Assembly: GCA_019459145.1 (NCBI GenBank)
Contig: JAIBEK010000038.1
Location: 1-64,000, forward strand
Source: Arenimonas sp.
GTDB taxonomy: Bacteria > Pseudomonadota > Alphaproteobacteria > Rhizobiales > Rhizobiaceae
Length of the DNA stretch: 64,000 bases
Reading direction: 5' to 3'
The notes beneath the pieces were generated by a model. The model ran no database searches. It was not told the DNA's origin and was given only the letters and a program-made list of their open reading frames with translations. Of the stretch, positions 15,375 through 55,088 are shown piece after piece. Made by a program: the position numbers and the translations under genes. Position 1 is the first letter of the stretch; every line of letters starts with the position of its first letter.

Positions 15375-18332
15375 ATGAACGGGACGACGACGAAAAGGCT
15401 GGCCGAGGTCGCGGACGGGGTGATCCGCCCGCTCAACCAGACGGAACTGAAGTCGGTCGTCTCATTGCTCAAGGATGCCGCCAAGCAGCAGCCGGCGATC
15501 GCCGCGTTGCTGGCGCATGAAGGCCCGCTCAAGACCTTCGTGACCTCAGCGCTGTCTCTTTCTCCCTATCTGCGCGACATGGCCATGCTCGACCCGGCGA
15601 CGCTTTCGCTGGCGCTCGATGCACCGCTCGAACCGCTGCTGGAAGACTTGGTCGCCGATGCGCGCAATGCCTGGCGCGGCGAAGACGGTGGACCGCCCGC
15701 CACGGAAGCGCAGGTGATGACACGGCTGAGGGTGGCCAAGCGCAAGCTTTCTTTCATCACGGCGCTGGCCGATCTCGCCCGCATCTTCGACGCCCGCGAC
15801 ACGACGCGCTGGCTGTCGGCCATGGCCGACGCCTGCGTTGCCGCCGCGATCGACCACCTGCTGATCGTCGGTGAGGACACCGGCAAGCTGAAGCTCGCCG
15901 ACCGTCAAGCGCCCTCGCTCGGTAGCGGGCTGATCGTGCTCGGCATGGGCAAGCTCGGTGCCTGCGAGCTCAATTATTCCTCCGACATCGACCTCGTCGT
16001 CTTCTTCGAGACGGAAGCAGGCATTCTCGCCTCGCCCGAGGATGCGACCGAGACCTATGGCCGTATGATGCGCCGGCTGGTGCGCATCCTGCAGGATCGC
16101 ACCGGCGACGGTTATGTCTTCCGCACAGACCTGAGGCTGCGGCCCGATCCGGGCTCGACGCCGCTCGCCGTGCCGGTCGAGGCGGCGCTGCTCTACTACG
16201 AGGGCAGGGGGCAGAACTGGGAGCGCGCCGCCTATATCAAGGCGCGGCCGGTGGGCGGCGACCTCAAGGCCGGGCAGAACTTCCTGCGTGAATTGGTGCC
16301 CTTCGTCTTCCGCAAATATCTCGACTATGCAGCGATCGCCGACATTCATTCGATCAAGCGGCAGATCCATGTGCACAAGGGGCATGGCGCGATCGCGGTG
16401 AAGGGTCACAATGTCAAGCTCGGCCGCGGCGGCATTCGCGAGATCGAGTTCTTCGCCCAGACCCAGCAGTTGATCGCCGGCGGGCGGATGCCGGAACTGC
16501 GGCTGAGGCCGACCGAGGCGGCGCTGCATGCGCTGACCGCCGCCCGATGGATCGATGCGGCCACCCGCGACGAGTTGATCGAGGCCTACTGGTTCCTGCG
16601 CGATGTCGAGCACCGCATCCAGATGATGCATGACGAGCAGACCCATCTCCTCCCCGAAACCGAGACCGAGCTTCGCCGCATCGCCTATATGGCGGGCTTT
16701 GGCGACACGACGGGCTTTTCCACCCGGCTGGAAAGCGTGCTGAAGACCGTGGAGCGCCGCTATGCGCGATTGTTCGAGCAGGAGGAGGTCCTGTCTTCGG
16801 CGTCGGGCAATCTCGTCTTCACCGGCCAGAAGGACGACCCGGATACGCTGAAGACGTTGAAGGGGCTCGGCTTCGAGCGGCCGGAGGACATTTCCCGCGT
16901 CATCCGCACCTGGCACTATGGCCGCTACCGCGCCACGCAATCGGTCGAGGCGCGCGAGCGGCTGACGGAACTGACGCCGCAACTCCTGAAGACCTTCGGC
17001 GAGAGCCGGCGGGCCGACGAGGCACTGCTGCGCTTCGACAGCTTCATTTCCGGCCTGCCGGCCGGCATCCAGCTGTTTTCGCTGCTGACCAGCAATCCCG
17101 CCCTGCTCGACCTGATCGTCAACATCATGTCGTCCGCGCCGCGGCTGGCCGAGATCATCGCCCGGCGGCCGCATGTGTTCGACGGCATGCTCGATCCCGG
17201 CCTGATGGTCGAACTGCCGACGCGCGACTATCTGGCGAAGCGCCTCTCTTCCTTCTTGCAGGGTAGCCGCCATTACGAGGAAATCCTCGACCGGCTGCGC
17301 ATCTTCGCCGCCGAACAGCGCTTCCTGATCGGCATCCGACTGCTGACCGGCACGATCGGCGGCGCCCAGGCCGGCCATGCGTTTGCCGATTTGGCCGGGC
17401 TGGTCATCGAGGAGGCGCTGAAGGCGGTGGTGGCCGAGATGGAGGCCGCCCACGGACGGATCGCCGGCGGCAAGGTGGCGCTGGCCGGCATGGGCAAGCT
17501 CGGCTCCTTTGAGCTGACCGCCGGCTCCGATGTCGACCTGATCCTGCTCTATGAACACGACGACGAAGCGGGCGAATCGGACGGAGCAAAACCGCTCGAT
17601 CCGGTACGATACTATACGCGCCTCACCCAGCGGCTCATCGCGGCGCTCTCGGCGCCGACGGCGGAGGGCGTTCTCTACGAGGTCGACATGCGGCTTCGCC
17701 CTTCGGGCAACAAGGGGCCGGTGGCGACACGGCTCAGAGCCTTCGAGAAATACCAGTTCGAGGAGGCCTGGACCTGGGAGCACATGGCGCTCACCCGCGC
17801 CCGGCTGATCGCCGGCGACAGTGAGTTGATGGACGCGACGAGAGCGGTGATCTCCGCCGTGCTGGCCAAGCCGCGCGAAGAGGCCAGGACCGCCGCCGAC
17901 GTCGCCGAAATGCGGACGATGATCGACAAGGAGAAGCCGCCGAAGGACCTCTGGGACCTGAAGCTCATTCCCGGCGGGCTGATCGACATCGAATTCATCG
18001 CCCAGCACCTGGCACTGATCGCGCGCGGGCGGGGCGTGGCGGCCGAGGTTGACGGGCTTTCGACGGCCGAGGCGCTGAAGCGGCTCGGCGGCCAACTGAT
18101 GGACCCGAACGACCTCGAACTCTGCCTGGTGGCGTTGAAGCTCTATACCGAGCTGTCGCAGGTGATCCGCCTTTGCGTCGACGGCGGCTTCGACCCTGCG
18201 ACCGTCCCGGCCGGCCTCGTCGATCTCGTCTGCCGCGCCGGTGACAGCCCGGACCTGAAGACGCTCGAGGCGGAGATCAAGCGACTGTCGAAGGCGGTCA
18301 GGAAGGTGTTTCAGGGCGTGGTGAAGGGGTGA
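15375..18332 (+). CDS. glnE: bifunctional glutamine synthetase adenylyltransferase/deadenylase GlnE
   Basis: 985 residues, the full family length. Two nucleotidyltransferase domains are visible: the N-terminal one (deadenylylation) with GMGKLGACELNYSSDIDLVV near residue 195, and the C-terminal one (adenylylation) with GMGKLGSFELTAGSDVDLIL near 705. A helical central/PII-response region lies between them, containing the segment HIQ-like EHRIQMMHDEQTH. The start is supported by GGGGAGG just upstream. GlnE adds or removes AMP on glutamine synthetase in response to PII and glutamine, tuning nitrogen assimilation. It is monocistronic here and converges on the GGDEF-EAL gene. Confidence 0.95.
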   Translation: MNGTTTKRLAEVADGVIRPLNQTELKSVVSLLKDAAKQQPAIAALLAHEGPLKTFVTSALSLSPYLRDMAMLDPATLSLALDAPLEPLLEDLVADARNAWRGEDGGPPATEAQVMTRLRVAKRKLSFITALADLARIFDARDTTRWLSAMADACVAAAIDHLLIVGEDTGKLKLADRQAPSLGSGLIVLGMGKLGACELNYSSDIDLVVFFETEAGILASPEDATETYGRMMRRLVRILQDRTGDGYVFRTDLRLRPDPGSTPLAVPVEAALLYYEGRGQNWERAAYIKARPVGGDLKAGQNFLRELVPFVFRKYLDYAAIADIHSIKRQIHVHKGHGAIAVKGHNVKLGRGGIREIEFFAQTQQLIAGGRMPELRLRPTEAALHALTAARWIDAATRDELIEAYWFLRDVEHRIQMMHDEQTHLLPETETELRRIAYMAGFGDTTGFSTRLESVLKTVERRYARLFEQEEVLSSASGNLVFTGQKDDPDTLKTLKGLGFERPEDISRVIRTWHYGRYRATQSVEARERLTELTPQLLKTFGESRRADEALLRFDSFISGLPAGIQLFSLLTSNPALLDLIVNIMSSAPRLAEIIARRPHVFDGMLDPGLMVELPTRDYLAKRLSSFLQGSRHYEEILDRLRIFAAEQRFLIGIRLLTGTIGGAQAGHAFADLAGLVIEEALKAVVAEMEAAHGRIAGGKVALAGMGKLGSFELTAGSDVDLILLYEHDDEAGESDGAKPLDPVRYYTRLTQRLIAALSAPTAEGVLYEVDMRLRPSGNKGPVATRLRAFEKYQFEEAWTWEHMALTRARLIAGDSELMDATRAVISAVLAKPREEARTAADVAEMRTMIDKEKPPKDLWDLKLIPGGLIDIEFIAQHLALIARGRGVAAEVDGLSTAEALKRLGGQLMDPNDLELCLVALKLYTELSQVIRLCVDGGFDPATVPAGLVDLVCRAGDSPDLKTLEAEIKRLSKAVRKVFQGVVKG

Positions 18333-18515
18333 GGAGCGCAAACCGGCACCGCGGACGGCGGACAGGGACGGCGACGTCGCTCAACGGAGTGCTCCGCGAA
18401 CCTTGATGGGTGCGGCCATGGATACTGTCGATCCTCTCGCCGCCTTCCTGAACGGATGATGGAATGATCCGGAGGCGGGTCTCAACGCGATCCGGCAGAG
18501 CGGCTTCGCATCCGG

Positions 18516-20720
18516 TCACGCGATTTTGCGCTGTTCCTGCTCGCCCAGGGTGCGGGCGATATCGCCAGCCGTCTGGGGATGACTGAACAGGTAGCCCTGG
18601 AACTCGGTGCAGCCTTCCGACGTCACGCTTGAGAGTTGCTCATCCGTCTCGACACCCTCGGCGGTCGTAACGATCCCGAGGCTGCTGCTCAGACCCACGA
18701 CGGCGCGGACGATGGCTAGGCTTTCCTCCTTGTGCGGCAGATCCTGAATGAAGGACTGGTCGATCTTGATCTTGTCAAACGGGAAGCTGCGCAGATAGCC
18801 GAGCGAGGAATAGCCGGTGCCGAAATCGTCCATGGCTATCCTGATGCCGAGGTCGCGAAGCTGGTGGAGGATGGCAAAGGCGCTTTCATTGTCCTGGATG
18901 AGCACCAGTTCGGTGATCTCGAGTTCCAGCCGGCTGGCCGGGAGGCCGGAGGAGACCAGGGCCTGTGTGACGGCGGTTACGAGGTTCTTGCTCTTGAACT
19001 GGGCCGGCGAGAGGTTCACCGCGATGGTCACCTGGCTCGGCCAAGTGGCGGCCTCGGCGCAAGCCTGGCGCAGGACCCATTCTCCCAAGGGTACGATCAG
19101 GCCGGTCTCTTCCGCGATCGGGATGAACTCCATGGGCGAGATCATGCCGCGGGTTGGGTGATGCCAGCGCACAAGAGCCTCGCAGCCGGTGACCGTCCCT
19201 GTCTTCACGTCGATGATCGGCTGATAATAGACCTCGAACTCGTTGGTCACGATCGCCTTGCGAAGATCGAGTTCGAGGCCGCGCCGTTCCTGCATGCGCG
19301 CATCCATGTCGAGCTCGAAGAAGCGGTAGGTGCCACCGCCGTCAGCCTTGGCGCGGTAGAGTGCGAGATCCGCGTTTTTCATTAACACATCCGGCATGTT
19401 GCCGTCATTCGGCGCCATAGAGATGCCGATGCTCGCGGCCACGACCACCTGATGTCCGTCGAGGTCGAAGGGCGTGCCGAGCACTTCGACGAGACGGGAC
19501 GCGAGCGCCGTCACATCGGCGGGATGCTGGGACTCCAGCTGAAGGATGGCGAATTCGTCGCCTCCGAGACGCGCGATGACGTCCTCGCCGCGGGTGCAAC
19601 TGCGCATGCGATCGGCCGCCGCCTGCAAGAGAAGGTCGCCGACGGGATGGCCGAGCGTATCGTTGACGTTCTTGAAGCGGTCGAGGTCAAGGCTCAGGAC
19701 CGCCAGCGGCTTCGATCTCGGCAACCGTCCTACGATGCCGTCCAGACGCTCGTAAAAGGCCACGCGGTTGAGCAGGCCCGTCAGCGCATCATGGTGCGCC
19801 AGAAACTTGATCTTCTCTTCGGCCAGCAGTCTTTCGGTGATGTCTTCGAAGGTGGCGACGAAACCGCCGTTCGGTGCGGGCCGGTGGGTCATGGCGATGC
19901 TGCGTCCGTCGCCGGTCTGGTGGACGGCATAGCCATACGAGCGTTCGACAATGAAGCGTCGGGTCAGTTTCAGCGTATCCTGCAGGTCCACCTCTTTGCG
20001 CCCCGCCTTCCGGAACGCCAATTCCAGCAATTCCTGGATCGTTCGACCGGGCGTGACCAGTTCCAGGGGGACCCTGAAGATCTCGGCAAAACGCCCATTG
20101 GCGACGACGAGCCTCTCTTGCGCGTCGAACATGCACAAGCCCATCGACATGTTGGTCAGCGCCGTGTCCAGGCGTTCATTCTGGGTCGCCAGGTTCTGTT
20201 GGCTCTGCTGTAGCGCGCCCATCGTCCGGTCGAGCACCCGCAGAGGAAAGATCCGCAGCGCGAAATACATGCCGAAACCGAGAAGGGAACTGAGGAGCGC
20301 CACCAGCCCCGTTTCATAGATGTGTGAACGGAAGCTGGTCACCGCCTCCAGATAGCCGCGTGGCTGGCCGGAGACGAGAATTGGCAGGCGTCTGCTGATT
20401 GTCGGGCTCTCGGGCTGGGCTCCGATTTCCAAGACAAGCTGCCCATCTTCTGCATAGATCCGCTGCTGGAGCGCCTCGCCATCGGCATAGGGAAATTCGA
20501 TCAGTTCCTGCAGGCGTAGCTGCTGATACTGCCACAGGCTGTCATGCGCATAGATATATTGGGCGACCCGATTGCCGGAAAGCCCCGCCTTGAGGTCCAG
20601 CGTGCGGGTCGTGTCGGAATAGGCATCCCAAAGGAAGCTGACCGGGGCGGCCACCGCGGTGACCAGGGCCACGGCCAGTCCAATCGTGCTGACGAGGGTG
20701 CGCAGTCTTGTGGTCGCCAT
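18516..20720 (-). CDS. membrane PAS-GGDEF-EAL cyclic-di-GMP enzyme with periplasmic sensor segment
   Basis: 734 residues from the ATG at 20720. Transmembrane helices at about 8-30 and 137-158 enclose a periplasmic segment of about 105 residues. A PAS-like domain follows (about 185-298, ending FEDITERLLAEEK). The GGDEF domain has intact GGDEF (386-390) and the inhibitory I-site RGED (377-380). The EAL domain has E514-A-L, DDFGTGYSSLGYL, the KIKID lysine, AEGVE and FQGYLFS, so both cyclase and phosphodiesterase activities look possible. The gene lies 8 nt downstream of a periplasmic binding protein, its probable ligand-sensing partner. Confidence 0.93.
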   Translation of the reverse strand: MATTRLRTLVSTIGLAVALVTAVAAPVSFLWDAYSDTTRTLDLKAGLSGNRVAQYIYAHDSLWQYQQLRLQELIEFPYADGEALQQRIYAEDGQLVLEIGAQPESPTISRRLPILVSGQPRGYLEAVTSFRSHIYETGLVALLSSLLGFGMYFALRIFPLRVLDRTMGALQQSQQNLATQNERLDTALTNMSMGLCMFDAQERLVVANGRFAEIFRVPLELVTPGRTIQELLELAFRKAGRKEVDLQDTLKLTRRFIVERSYGYAVHQTGDGRSIAMTHRPAPNGGFVATFEDITERLLAEEKIKFLAHHDALTGLLNRVAFYERLDGIVGRLPRSKPLAVLSLDLDRFKNVNDTLGHPVGDLLLQAAADRMRSCTRGEDVIARLGGDEFAILQLESQHPADVTALASRLVEVLGTPFDLDGHQVVVAASIGISMAPNDGNMPDVLMKNADLALYRAKADGGGTYRFFELDMDARMQERRGLELDLRKAIVTNEFEVYYQPIIDVKTGTVTGCEALVRWHHPTRGMISPMEFIPIAEETGLIVPLGEWVLRQACAEAATWPSQVTIAVNLSPAQFKSKNLVTAVTQALVSSGLPASRLELEITELVLIQDNESAFAILHQLRDLGIRIAMDDFGTGYSSLGYLRSFPFDKIKIDQSFIQDLPHKEESLAIVRAVVGLSSSLGIVTTAEGVETDEQLSSVTSEGCTEFQGYLFSHPQTAGDIARTLGEQEQRKIA

Positions 20721-20728
20721 GCTGCTCG

Positions 20729-21547
20729 TTACTCCGCGACGGTCAGGCTTCCGGTCTCGCGCAACGACAACCGTCCTTGCTCCGACCGGAGAAAGGCGAG
20801 GAGACCTTGCGCGGCGGTTGCGGTCTTGTCCGCATAGACGAGATAGTAGCGCTTCTCGTAGGGGTAGACGCCCTTTTCGAGGTTCTCCAGGGTCGGCTCC
20901 ACCCCATCGATCGCGACAAGCCGCACATTGCGCTTCTCGGTGACGATCTGGCTGAGGCCGGACTGGACAAGGGAGCCGGGCAGATCTTCCGCCGCGCTGG
21001 CATTGTCCTGATCCGTCGCGGCGACGGGTATCTCGGGGCGCTGCCGCGCCGCATCGAGGGCCTCCGCCATGCCCGGGAACTGCGCGATGAAGATCGCCGT
21101 GTCGGTTTCCGACTTGGGCCGCAGGATGAGGCGCACAGGTGATCCGTCCGGCCATGTCGGGTTCTCCGACGCGAACAGTCCCGGCAGGTCGACGCTCTTG
21201 ATAGCGCCGGGCGAACGGTGGGACGTGATCAGGACCAGCGGGGTCCGCGCCAGCGGGGCGGACTTCAAGCCGCGCGCCAACTCCTCCGTCTTGAGTTCCC
21301 GCGAGGAAATTGCCAGATCGATCACGCCGTCGCCGGCTGCCCGGATGGCGCCCGAGCTGCCGAGGTCGGGCACGATCTCGAAGGTGGGGCCGCCTTGCGC
21401 GGCGTAGGCCTCGGCCAGGTGCTCCGCCATCGGCATCGCGCCGCCGGTGCCGCCCAGCCGCAGCGTTTGCGCTACCGCCGGCTCGCCGGTCAGCAGGCCT
21501 GCGAGGAGGAGGGGGATGAGGATCAGGTTCGGACGTGGTCGACGCAT
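20729..21547 (-). CDS. PstS-like periplasmic substrate-binding protein paired with a GGDEF-EAL protein
   Basis: 272 residues with a cleavable signal peptide (MRRPRPNLILIPLLLAGLL... to about AVA-QT, residue 27). The mature part has the PstS/PBP-like pattern: LRLGGTGG at the first strand, DLGSSGAIRAAGDGVIDLAI with ISSRELKTEE (the anion-binding GxSGG/SSR region of phosphate-binding proteins), and a C-terminal EKRYYLVYADK segment. The start follows GAGAAGGTG. No permease or ATPase gene is nearby, and the only co-transcribed gene encodes a membrane c-di-GMP enzyme. I infer a sensory rather than transport role. The ligand (phosphate, another oxyanion or something else) cannot be read from the sequence. 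Confidence 0.82.
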   Translation of the reverse strand: MRRPRPNLILIPLLLAGLLTGEPAVAQTLRLGGTGGAMPMAEHLAEAYAAQGGPTFEIVPDLGSSGAIRAAGDGVIDLAISSRELKTEELARGLKSAPLARTPLVLITSHRSPGAIKSVDLPGLFASENPTWPDGSPVRLILRPKSETDTAIFIAQFPGMAEALDAARQRPEIPVAATDQDNASAAEDLPGSLVQSGLSQIVTEKRNVRLVAIDGVEPTLENLEKGVYPYEKRYYLVYADKTATAAQGLLAFLRSEQGRLSLRETGSLTVAE

Positions 21548-21767
21548 TCTGCACCTTCTCGGATTGCGGTCGGCAATCGCGCAAAGAGGGAAACGGAAAT
21601 CGAACTCTCAATCCTTATGTGTATCAGCAATCATGAATGGATACACGCACGCGCGATGACCAAATGCCACTATGGTGAACTCTTGATTAGAAAACTCGTG
21701 GCTGGCGCGGGGTGGCGGGTTCTGACCGCCTTCACCCGCCCGTCGGGCGAAGGCCCCGGCCTGTCCG

Positions 21768-24110
21768 TCACGCCCGCTTGCGAACCGTCTCGATCACCAG
21801 GACGTCGGGGATGCGGACCGATACCACGGTTCCCTTGCCCTCGCAGGAGCGGATCCTGAGGCTGCCGCCGTGCAGGTTGACCAATGAGCGCGAGATGGCA
21901 AGGCCCAGCCCCGAGCCGCCATTGCTCTTGGCATACTGGCTCTGCACCTGCTCGAAGGGCTGGCCGATCTTGCCAAGCGCCGCCTTGGGAATGCCGATGC
22001 CGGTGTCGGCGATGGTGATCGCCAGCTGATCACCGATCTTGCGGGCGCGCACTTCGACCCGGCCGCCCGGTTCGGTGAACTTGACGGCATTCGACAGGAT
22101 GTTGAGCAGGATCTGTTTCATCGAGCGGCGGTCCGCGGTCATGGAAAGCCCGGAGGTGATGCGCTGTTCGATGCGGACATTCTTCTCCTCGGCGGGAATG
22201 GCGGTCAGGCGCAAGCTCTCCTCGATCAGCGCGTCGAGATCGATGTTCTCGCAGCGAAGCTTCATCTGCCCTGCCTCGATCTTCGACATGTCGAGGATGT
22301 CGTTGATGACATTGAGCAGGTGCTTGCCGCTCTCGTGGATGTCGCGGGCATACTCCGAATATTTCGGCGAGCCGATCGGCCCGAACATGCCGGCCAGCAG
22401 GATCTCGGAAAAGCCGAGAATGGCGTTGAGCGGGGTGCGAAGCTCGTGGCTCATATTGGCGAGGAATTCCGACTTCGCCTTGTTGGCAGCCTCGGCCCGC
22501 TCCTTCTCCGCCTGGTAGTTGGCATTGGCGACCGAAAGTGCTGCCTTCTGAAGCTCCAGTTTCCTCTGCGAGGAGGAGAGGTCGCCGATATTGGCCATCA
22601 GCCGGCGTTCCTGCTCGCGCAGGCGCTCCTGGTGGCGCTTCAACAGGGTGATGTCGGTGCCGACGGAGACGAGGCCGCCGTCGCGGGTGCGCCGCTCGTT
22701 GATCTGCAGCCAGCGCTCGTCGGCGAGTTGGACTTCCGTGGTGCGCGACGAGCCGCTCTGGTCGGGATCGGCGACGCGGCGCTGGATGATCGGCCGCTGG
22801 GCCGCGGCCTGAACCACGGCGCGCTCGGTACCGGGTACGAGGATGCTGTCCGGCAGGCCGTAGACGTGCTGGAAATGGCCGTTGCACATCACCAGGCGGT
22901 CGTTCTTGTCCCACAGCACGAAAGCTTCCGACGTGCATTCGATGGCGTCTGCAAGGCGCTGATCGGCCTCGGCATAGCGCTGGGCGAGGCGATGCTGCTC
23001 GGTGACGTCCATGGCGATGCCGATGACGTGCATGCAGCCGTTATGCGAGCAGATCACCTGGGCGCGGGCCCGCATCCAGACATAATGGCCCTGGGCATGG
23101 CGCATGCGGAAGATCTGGTCGATCTGCTTCGACTTGCCGCGGCCGACGGCGCGGGCGAGCGCGAAGAGGTTGCCGTCGTCCGGATGCATGAGACGCGCCG
23201 CATCGGCGAAGGCCATCACCTCGCTCGACGGGGGAAGCCCGAGCATTTCGTACATCGAACGCGACCAGAACAGCTTGCGGTTGGCGAGGTCGAAGTCCCA
23301 AAGCCCGCAACGGCCGCGCGACAGGGCCGCCTCGACCCGCATATTGCTTTCGAGGAAGATCTCGTCGGCATCGCGGGCGCGCTTCACCTGCTGGAAATAG
23401 GCGTAGAGAATGACGCTGAGGATCAGCGAAATACCGGCAAACAGCGTGACGTTGAGGGCGATCTCGCTGCGAAAGAAGGCCATGCCCGGCTGCAGCGAAT
23501 GGGCGGTGAGCAGCAGCGCGCCATCGGCGCCGACCGGGGTCAGCACGGCGAAATGGCGCTCGCCGCCAATATCGGTCTCGATGCCGCCGCCCTGGTCGGC
23601 GAAGCGCCGGATCGTGGCGACCTGCGGCAACAGGCTGGCGAGTGGCAGGCCGACATAGCCGGCACCGGCGGAAGACGAGGCGAAGATCCGGCCCGACGGC
23701 TCGACCATCAGCACGAAAGCCTGGCCGATGAGGCGTTCATCCGGCAGGAGGGCCAGCAGGGCGGCTTGCGCCGCCGCCCGGTCGGCGGTGACGAACAGCG
23801 CTTCCTGCCCGTGAAGGGCGGCGCCCGCGGTGGCGGCGACCAGCGCCGTGGTCTGGCGCACATTGTCCTCCAGCCGGCCGTGCTCGTTGATCATGCCGGC
23901 CAGCCGCGCCAGCGCCACGACGCAGAGGAAGGCCAGGATGAGTACCGGGATCGACCGGCGCAACACGGTCTCGATCCATCGGGACGGCCCCTTGTCGGAA
24001 TTGTTCATGCCCGCGATACGATCGCGCAGGCGGTTGAAGAATGCCACAATGACTGCAAAATTGACTCGCAACCGCTCATCGGCTGCGGTTGCCCGCCGCA
24101 CGTTCGACAT
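21768..24110 (-). CDS. pleC: PAS-containing sensor histidine kinase, PleC-like
   Basis: 780 residues (an alternative start at 24008 removes 34). Two transmembrane helices (about 53-75 and 217-240) bound a periplasmic sensor region. Two PAS/PAC domains follow (about 255-372 and 385-490), then a coiled-coil and a HisKA domain with H555 in NMSHELRTPLNAILGFSE. The HATPase domain has N-box NILSNAVKFT and G-boxes ADTGIGI and GGSGLGLAI. The HisKA/DHp sequence is of the PleC/DivJ/PdhS group that acts on the cell-cycle regulator DivK. The position between glnE and pepN is, as I recall, that of pleC in Sinorhizobium meliloti. The symbol is from similarity and synteny, not proof. Confidence 0.75.
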   Translation of the reverse strand: MSNVRRATAADERLRVNFAVIVAFFNRLRDRIAGMNNSDKGPSRWIETVLRRSIPVLILAFLCVVALARLAGMINEHGRLEDNVRQTTALVAATAGAALHGQEALFVTADRAAAQAALLALLPDERLIGQAFVLMVEPSGRIFASSSAGAGYVGLPLASLLPQVATIRRFADQGGGIETDIGGERHFAVLTPVGADGALLLTAHSLQPGMAFFRSEIALNVTLFAGISLILSVILYAYFQQVKRARDADEIFLESNMRVEAALSRGRCGLWDFDLANRKLFWSRSMYEMLGLPPSSEVMAFADAARLMHPDDGNLFALARAVGRGKSKQIDQIFRMRHAQGHYVWMRARAQVICSHNGCMHVIGIAMDVTEQHRLAQRYAEADQRLADAIECTSEAFVLWDKNDRLVMCNGHFQHVYGLPDSILVPGTERAVVQAAAQRPIIQRRVADPDQSGSSRTTEVQLADERWLQINERRTRDGGLVSVGTDITLLKRHQERLREQERRLMANIGDLSSSQRKLELQKAALSVANANYQAEKERAEAANKAKSEFLANMSHELRTPLNAILGFSEILLAGMFGPIGSPKYSEYARDIHESGKHLLNVINDILDMSKIEAGQMKLRCENIDLDALIEESLRLTAIPAEEKNVRIEQRITSGLSMTADRRSMKQILLNILSNAVKFTEPGGRVEVRARKIGDQLAITIADTGIGIPKAALGKIGQPFEQVQSQYAKSNGGSGLGLAISRSLVNLHGGSLRIRSCEGKGTVVSVRIPDVLVIETVRKRA

Positions 24111-54306: not shown

Positions 54307-55088
54307 TGGCTCAGGAACCCATTCTCACCGCGCGCGGCCTCGTCAAGCGTTATGGTCGCGTCACTGCCCTCGACAATGCCGACTTCGACCTCTACCCGGG
54401 CGAGATCCTCGCCGTCATCGGCGACAACGGTGCCGGAAAGTCCTCGATGATCAAGGCGATCTCCGGCGCGATTACGCCGGACGAGGGCGAGATCCGGCTG
54501 GAAGGCCAGACCGTGCAGTTTCGCTCGCCGATCGAGGCGCGCAAGGCCGGCATCGAAACGGTTTACCAGAACCTCGCGCTGTCGCCGGCGCTGTCGATCG
54601 CCGACAACATGTTCCTTGGCCGCGAGATCCGCAAGCCGGGCATCATGGGCAGCGTCTTCCGCTCGCTCGACCGGCCGGCGATGGAAAAGTTCTCGCGCGA
54701 CAAGCTCTCCGAACTCGGCCTGATGACCATCCAGAACATCAACCAGGCGGTGGAGACCCTGTCCGGCGGCCAGCGCCAGGGCGTGGCCGTGGCCCGCGCC
54801 GCAGCCTTCGGCTCGAAGGTCATCATCCTCGACGAGCCGACGGCGGCGCTCGGCGTCAAGGAAAGCCGCCGCGTGCTGGAACTCATCCAAGACGTGCGCT
54901 CGCGCGGCATTCCGATCGTGCTGATCAGCCACAACATGCCGCATGTCTTCGAAGTCGCCGACCGCATCCACATCCACAGGCTCGGCCGACGTCTTTGCGT
55001 CGTCAACCCGAAGGACTATACCATGTCGGACGCCGTGGCCTTCATGACCGGTGCCAAGGAAGCCCCAAGCGAGGCGCTGGCCGCATGA
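54306..55088 (+). CDS. frcA: fructose ABC transporter ATP-binding protein FrcA
   Basis: 260 residues with a single nucleotide-binding domain: Walker A GDNGAGKSS (about 38-46), Q-loop VYQNLAL, signature LSGGQRQGVAVARA, Walker B VIILDEPTAALG and switch His in LISHN. Most RbsA-type sugar ATPases have two fused domains; a single-domain FrcA that dimerises is the known arrangement in rhizobial frc. It overlaps frcC by one base and frcK by four (ATGA). Confidence 0.93.
   Translation: MAQEPILTARGLVKRYGRVTALDNADFDLYPGEILAVIGDNGAGKSSMIKAISGAITPDEGEIRLEGQTVQFRSPIEARKAGIETVYQNLALSPALSIADNMFLGREIRKPGIMGSVFRSLDRPAMEKFSRDKLSELGLMTIQNINQAVETLSGGQRQGVAVARAAAFGSKVIILDEPTAALGVKESRRVLELIQDVRSRGIPIVLISHNMPHVFEVADRIHIHRLGRRLCVVNPKDYTMSDAVAFMTGAKEAPSEALAA

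Follow-up and report, generated by a model that had tools for sequence, protein, structure and literature searches.

We analysed a pair of adjacent genes on the minus strand of contig JAIBEK010000038.1 from a member of the Rhizobiaceae (assembly GCA_019459145.1), of which the first 64,000 nucleotides form the window considered here. The first gene of the pair (20729..21547) encodes a PstS-like periplasmic binding protein of 272 amino acids, hereafter called the binder, and the second (18516..20720) a PAS-GGDEF-EAL membrane protein of 734 amino acids with two putative transmembrane (TM) helices. A preliminary description of this DNA had proposed that the two proteins form a sensor coupling a periplasmic ligand to the level of cyclic di-guanosine monophosphate (c-di-GMP). 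The positions of both open reading frames given there were confirmed, as was the gap of 8 nt (20721..20728) between the stop codon of the binder and the start codon of the enzyme. Most relatives compared (11 of 13) offer a start codon overlapping the binder stop by 4 nt, which together with the short gap argues for one transcript of both genes. The secretion signal claimed for the binder is also apparent: read by eye, its N-terminus resembles a Sec signal peptide ending in AVA/QT, without a lipobox cysteine.

The membrane enzyme begins with a sensor head (residues 1-180; 20181..20720) composed of TM1, a compact Cache-like ectodomain and TM2. In the structure model, the ectodomain comprises approximately residues 31-136 and is flanked by two helices which read as membrane-spanning, and no Pfam family exceeded its cut-off in these first 180 residues. 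The head is followed by a cytoplasmic PAS_7 domain (residues 188-302; 19815..20159; Pfam 1.2e-24), a GGDEF domain (residues 308-462; 19335..19799; 7.8e-45) and an EAL domain (residues 485-715; 18576..19268; 2e-77). All catalytic and regulatory motifs inspected are intact, namely the I-site R377xxD, GGDEF, E514AL, NLSP, EITE, DDFG, KIKID, AEGVE and QGY, so that Pfam domains and motif check agree with the architecture described before. With the catalytic residues of a bifunctional GGDEF-EAL protein, the enzyme likely makes and breaks c-di-GMP. In a census of 109 proteins with the head, including the one studied here, GGDEF was present in 107, the I-site in 104 and EAL in 105. LapD, whose Legionella orthologue is CdgS9 (4u64), acts as an inside-out receptor and its domains are inactive; the window enzyme, by contrast, has non-degenerate GGDEF and EAL motifs and does not match a LapD-type inactive receptor.

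By Pfam, the binder matches PBP_like_2 (5.8e-19), SBP_bac_11 (8.2e-7) and LysR_substrate (0.0058). Its structure was predicted with a mean pLDDT (predicted local distance difference test) of 90.8, and the best Foldseek matches of the model in the PDB were two phosphate-binding proteins, 4gd5 with bound phosphate and 4q8r. Judged from family match and predicted fold, the binder is a PstS-fold member of the PBP_like_2 family. Against the curated PstS subfamily TIGR02136 it scores 42.3 bits, far below the cut-off of 206.6.

An initial sample of 60 genomes, among them the own genome, contained a relative of the binder in four (E 1e-10). A search of GTDB contigs with a binder profile yielded 26 loci, eight of which pair the binder with a GGDEF-EAL protein, four with a kinase bearing the same head and four with a dCache-like kinase (in L021 with the domain below the Pfam cut-off); the remaining matches are two in pst-like operons recognised by eye, one at a contig edge and seven partial ones. 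At all eight GGDEF-EAL loci (L007-L014) the binder precedes the same head as in the window, and at L015-L018 it precedes the head on a histidine kinase. The heads of L017 and L018 are very diverged; both were missed by tblastn, L017 being recognised by eye and L018 placed by position, and both were contained in the profile that afterwards scored them.

Independently of the binder, the head alone was searched for with the N-terminal 180 residues of the enzyme in genomes of the same order, class and phylum (E 1e-4, 1e-4 and 1e-6, respectively). Counting the own genome each time, the head was found in at least 17 of 397 order, 20 of 385 class and 21 of 398 phylum genomes; these are lower bounds, since scoring was limited to the top 6-8 candidates of each genome, as in the converse search below, and the thresholds differed between searches. 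After subtraction of the own genome and a repeat of G545, and with L001, L004, L034, L035 and L054 repeating loci already counted, 54 other head loci were obtained. A binder gene was present within about 1.5 kb on either side of the head in 44 of these (order 14/16, class 12/19, phylum 18/19), and in 44 of the 49 loci with head scores of at least 60 bits. Two of the 54 loci (L037, identical to L005, and L096, with scores equal to those of L015) had contributed to the alignment underlying the profile, and their exclusion gives 42 of 52. Incomplete binder frames occur in three of the 44 paired loci (L105 at a contig end, L109 in two frames, L126 with a short open frame). Loss of adjacency in relatives had been named beforehand as an outcome that would speak against a functional pair, and adjacency was what these loci retained. 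In the converse search of the 397 order genomes with the binder (E 1e-15), 15 genes including the own scored above 213 bits and all 15 lie beside a head, after which the score drops to 103 bits. As genomes hold 2 to 5 PBP_like_2 matches (11 genomes) and about 4500 genes per genome were assumed, chance adjacency would be expected in well under one case. The pairing of binder and head is therefore real, widespread and specific. The order of binder followed by sensor is kept across classes, and at L043 the two genes are arranged head to head. Of the 19 new phylum loci, 11 come from a single family, f240 (within L117-L131), and all 11 are paired and have kinase outputs.

The output behind the head varies. 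Paired heads of the order carry GGDEF-EAL in 11 of 14 cases and kinases in three, those of the class carry kinases in 11 of 12 (L102 is without a recognised output in the flanking stretch), and those of the phylum carry kinases in all 18. Among the unpaired heads, L049 and L051 of the order carry GGDEF-EAL and the weak phylum locus L133 has a GGDEF match. Mapped onto the trees, the kinase label requires five changes for the binder and four for the head, of which strongly supported branches force only two and one. Binder and Cache-like ectodomain are thus a cassette with exchangeable output, connected to GGDEF-EAL proteins or kinases in Hyphomicrobiales and to kinases in the pairs detected outside this order. 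Regarding the proposed c-di-GMP sensor pair, the GGDEF-EAL partner is confirmed for the window, but the arrangement is not confined to c-di-GMP, as many relatives use histidine kinases.

The ligand pocket of the binder was compared between 26 paired binders and 13 PstS proteins associated with pstCAB genes. Position 149 is Asp in 24 of 26 paired binders and Thr in all 13 transport proteins. Pocket loop 1 reads G-[TS]-G in the paired binders versus S-[ST]-[ST] in 10 of 13 transport PstS, and the anion loop S-G-T-R of PstS is replaced by loops resembling S-[DE]-[ST]-D-T. R143 is found in 26/26 paired binders versus 5/13 transport PstS, R83 in 25/26 versus 10/13, and D179, mostly inside D-Q-[DE]-N, in 26/26, with Asp also in 5/13 transport PstS. 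In PstS of E. coli, an Asp of the other lobe (D56) accepts the proton of phosphate. In the binder, D149 may have taken over as the proton-accepting acid, in agreement with a protonated oxyanion as ligand; alternatively, the binder may hold something else. Because the pocket departs from that of transport PstS, with Asp for Thr at 149, phosphate is uncertain as the ligand. The earlier assumption of a phosphate-type fold was correct. As the loops lining the PstS pocket are altered, however, the ligand may be something other than an oxyanion of the phosphate type.

Several known systems resemble the pair in part. In the NspS-MbaA system of Vibrio cholerae, which is known from Sinorhizobium meliloti as well, the gene of a periplasmic binder overlaps or adjoins that of a two-TM GGDEF-EAL protein, with unrelated genes around (PMC9993111). 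The window pair likewise has a separate soluble binder encoded beside a two-TM GGDEF-EAL gene, in rhizobia, and the conserved adjacency supports the likeness to NspS-MbaA drawn in the preliminary description, with a binder from another family. NspS is a PotD-type polyamine binder (PMC9993111), whereas the window binder is of the PBP_like_2 (PstS) type and had no Pfam match to any PotD-type family, SBP_bac_8 included, at E 0.1. Moreover, the excerpt of PMC9993111 describes only GGDEF-EAL partners, whereas the head studied here also occurs on histidine kinases. AioX, ArxX and ArrX of the XSR arsenic systems are oxyanion-type periplasmic binders used for sensing and encoded with a membrane sensor kinase; AioX is similar to PhnD, and its pocket contains Tyr, Ser, His, Cys and Asp (PMC5908839). 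The window binder is PstS-like and has a c-di-GMP enzyme as partner; in general searches, there was no AioX chain among its 25 PDB matches (E up to 1) and no PhnD-type Pfam match at E 0.1. With PstS of the PstSCAB transporter the binder shares fold and family, but it has no pstC or pstA nearby and both its anion loop and loop 1 are replaced. CdgH contains a PBPb domain (PMC5431781) and RmcA an SBP_bac_3 domain (PMC8846402) within the c-di-GMP enzyme itself; the window pair would likewise place a sensor of this fold over a c-di-GMP enzyme, here as a separate PstS-type protein instead of a built-in domain. More generally, solute-binding proteins (SBPs) are described as stimulating kinases, chemoreceptors and c-di-GMP enzymes (PMC9602780). 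No report of the binder-head cassette was found among the titles and abstracts listed in the literature searches.

Genes for binder and head adjoin each other across Pseudomonadota, and the two proteins diverge in step: over 26 pairs, the pairwise distances of binders and heads correlate with r = 0.86, a value reached by none of 5000 permutations. Taken together, we consider it quite probable from the comparisons above that binder and membrane enzyme work as one two-protein receptor. The secreted PstS-like protein would bind a small ligand, and the loaded (or empty) binder would dock on the partner ectodomain near the membrane-distal loop holding W63. This Trp is kept in all 57 paired rows of the head alignment, and both rows without it among 63 are unpaired; the alignment excludes the class matches below 26 bits (L111-L114), and the paired rows include the own locus (L035) as well as both L015 and L096, which probably represent a single locus. 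Docking would move TM2 and, via the PAS linker, bias GGDEF against EAL and thus the making against the breaking of c-di-GMP. Least certain in this scheme is the ligand, for which we suggest a small anion. It may be a phosphorus oxyanion in protonated form, with R83 and R143 holding it and D149 accepting its proton, instead of phosphate in the binding mode of transport PstS. With less confidence, though still leaning towards it, we propose an undescribed portable receptor head, in which a mini-Cache membrane domain tipped with Trp is combined with a binder of PstS fold whose anion pocket has been rewired. In the course of evolution, this head would have been switched several times between histidine-kinase outputs and a dual c-di-GMP enzyme. 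In Hyphomicrobiales it would turn a kinase stimulus into a c-di-GMP decision, and it would belong to a wider sensory PstS branch that left phosphate transport.

The joint receptor has to be weighed against several observations that speak against it. Within the first sample, the binder was present in only 1 of 35 congeners and is therefore dispensable. No binder was found within about 1.5 kb on each side of 10 of the 54 heads; five of these are weak matches (L111-L114 of the class, below 26 bits, and L133 of the phylum at 40 bits), and the other five, L049 and L051 with GGDEF-EAL and L107, L108 and L110 with kinases, score 61-104 bits. W63 also occurs in four of six aligned unpaired heads and may therefore serve the fold of the head itself too, and the proposed docking site was placed on a model of the head as a monomer, without the binder. 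The correlation of binder and head distances also reflects shared species history. Finally, adjacency is not always functional, as AgtS and AruS show no contact with neighbouring SBPs (PMC11113362).

An alternative which keeps the partnership, and which we regard as unlikely, is that the binder has lost the binding of a small ligand and acts as a structural co-receptor or envelope-state sensor, in the way YfiR acts on YfiN. The changes that the phosphate site shows in loops 1 and 3 would suit such a role, as would the resemblance of the mini-Cache head to protein-responsive ectodomains such as WalK with YycH (model 9a5d). On the other hand, R83, R143, D149 and D179 are kept across very diverged members in the proportions given above, which suggests a ligand.

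Another possibility is that the binder is an orphan transport SBP for phosphate scavenging that feeds the PstCAB of the genome, and that the adjoining GGDEF-EAL gene acts alone. The fold of the binder is indeed that of PstS, and orphan SBPs beside unlinked sensors exist (PMC11113362). The genome contains one other PBP_like_2 gene, at C35, adjoined by PstC-, PstA- and PstB-like genes, so that the PstCAB-like genes already have a PstS of their own; the idea that the binder serves a distant ATP-binding cassette transporter, listed earlier as an outcome that would refute the sensor, is made less likely by this. PstC, PstA and PstB were searched for by tblastn (E 1e-5) with queries from the operons of L020 and L029, named by eye. 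Neither PstC nor PstA was found in the 64-kb window or in L007 to L019, while a PstB-like ATPase lies at 54321-55040, 33 kb from the pair, and others occur in the stretches of L011, L013 and L015. The earlier statement that no permease or ATPase gene is present thus stands for the permeases and is modified by one distant ATPase. In a tree of 55 proteins, from which L014 was left out because its binder frame is split in two (as in the other trees), 25 of the 26 paired binders lie on one side of a branch, apart from the pstCAB-associated PstS; this branch has a support of 91/94 under a midpoint root only and includes one very long-branched row, and the diverged L018 lies outside. Given also that the near relatives of the binder adjoin the same head without PstC or PstA in the flanks of L007-L018, and that the binder has the Asp at 149 typical of paired binders, orphan transport appears very improbable.

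Equally improbable is a neighbourhood without function, in which the genes merely travel together as a mobile pair: presence in the genus is patchy and the genomic site is variable, as described below, but across classes the binder still precedes the sensor despite the changing output domain, and even the head-to-head case L043 keeps the pair.

To our knowledge, the ligands of c-di-GMP enzymes are mostly unknown. According to a 2022 review, the PBP clan comprises 27 Pfam families, and SBP_bac_3 was the only one of them investigated in c-di-GMP networks (PMC8846402). The novelty here lies in the binder family, in the lack of a Pfam model for the ectodomain and in the unusual clarity with which outputs are exchanged, whereas the mode of signalling is a known one. 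Purification and screening of such a receptor are easiest for a binder that is separate, small and soluble, and the pair therefore makes one c-di-GMP input directly testable. Since the same head is also found on kinases, a ligand identified in one organism would suggest both kinds of input in many others. In addition, the natural chimeras of one head with two outputs provide material for studying how contact at an ectodomain is passed through the membrane.

Further PstS-like proteins were encountered beside sensors. Distant ones directly precede dCache-like kinases at L019, L021, L022 and L031 (Contendobacter, Desulfovibrio, Chloroflexi), and PstS-like proteins seem to have been recruited for sensing more widely. 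In the order sample, a second tier of 12 binders (L069-L080) scored 70-103 bits; in all nine neighbours scanned (L072, L075 and L077 being left out), a HAMP domain lies behind an N-terminal part of about 320-390 residues, and these loci are probably another undescribed pair of binder and sensor. The arrangement of binder, head and kinase is shared by Accumulibacter (L017). Accumulibacter stores polyphosphate, which may hint at the ligand of the binder. At L107, where a head-bearing kinase lacks a PstS-like gene, a divergent neighbour reads by eye as an SBP-fold protein resembling dihydroxyphthalate decarboxylase/NMT1.

In the own genome and in G020, the cassette is located between glnE and the gene of a PAS-histidine kinase. 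In 8 of 30 glnE loci read from 40 genomes searched, the kinase gene directly follows glnE without insert, and in two congeners, G033 and G021, a different GGDEF-EAL gene is found between them. In the window, this kinase gene (21768-24110, minus strand) encodes a PAS-PAS histidine kinase and precedes the pair in the same orientation at a distance of 220 nt; its best NCBIfam likeness is DivJ, with 235 of 1000 bits and far below the cut-off. The slot between glnE and the kinase gene (window positions 18332-21768; also L164 and L166) is a possible exchange site for c-di-GMP genes.

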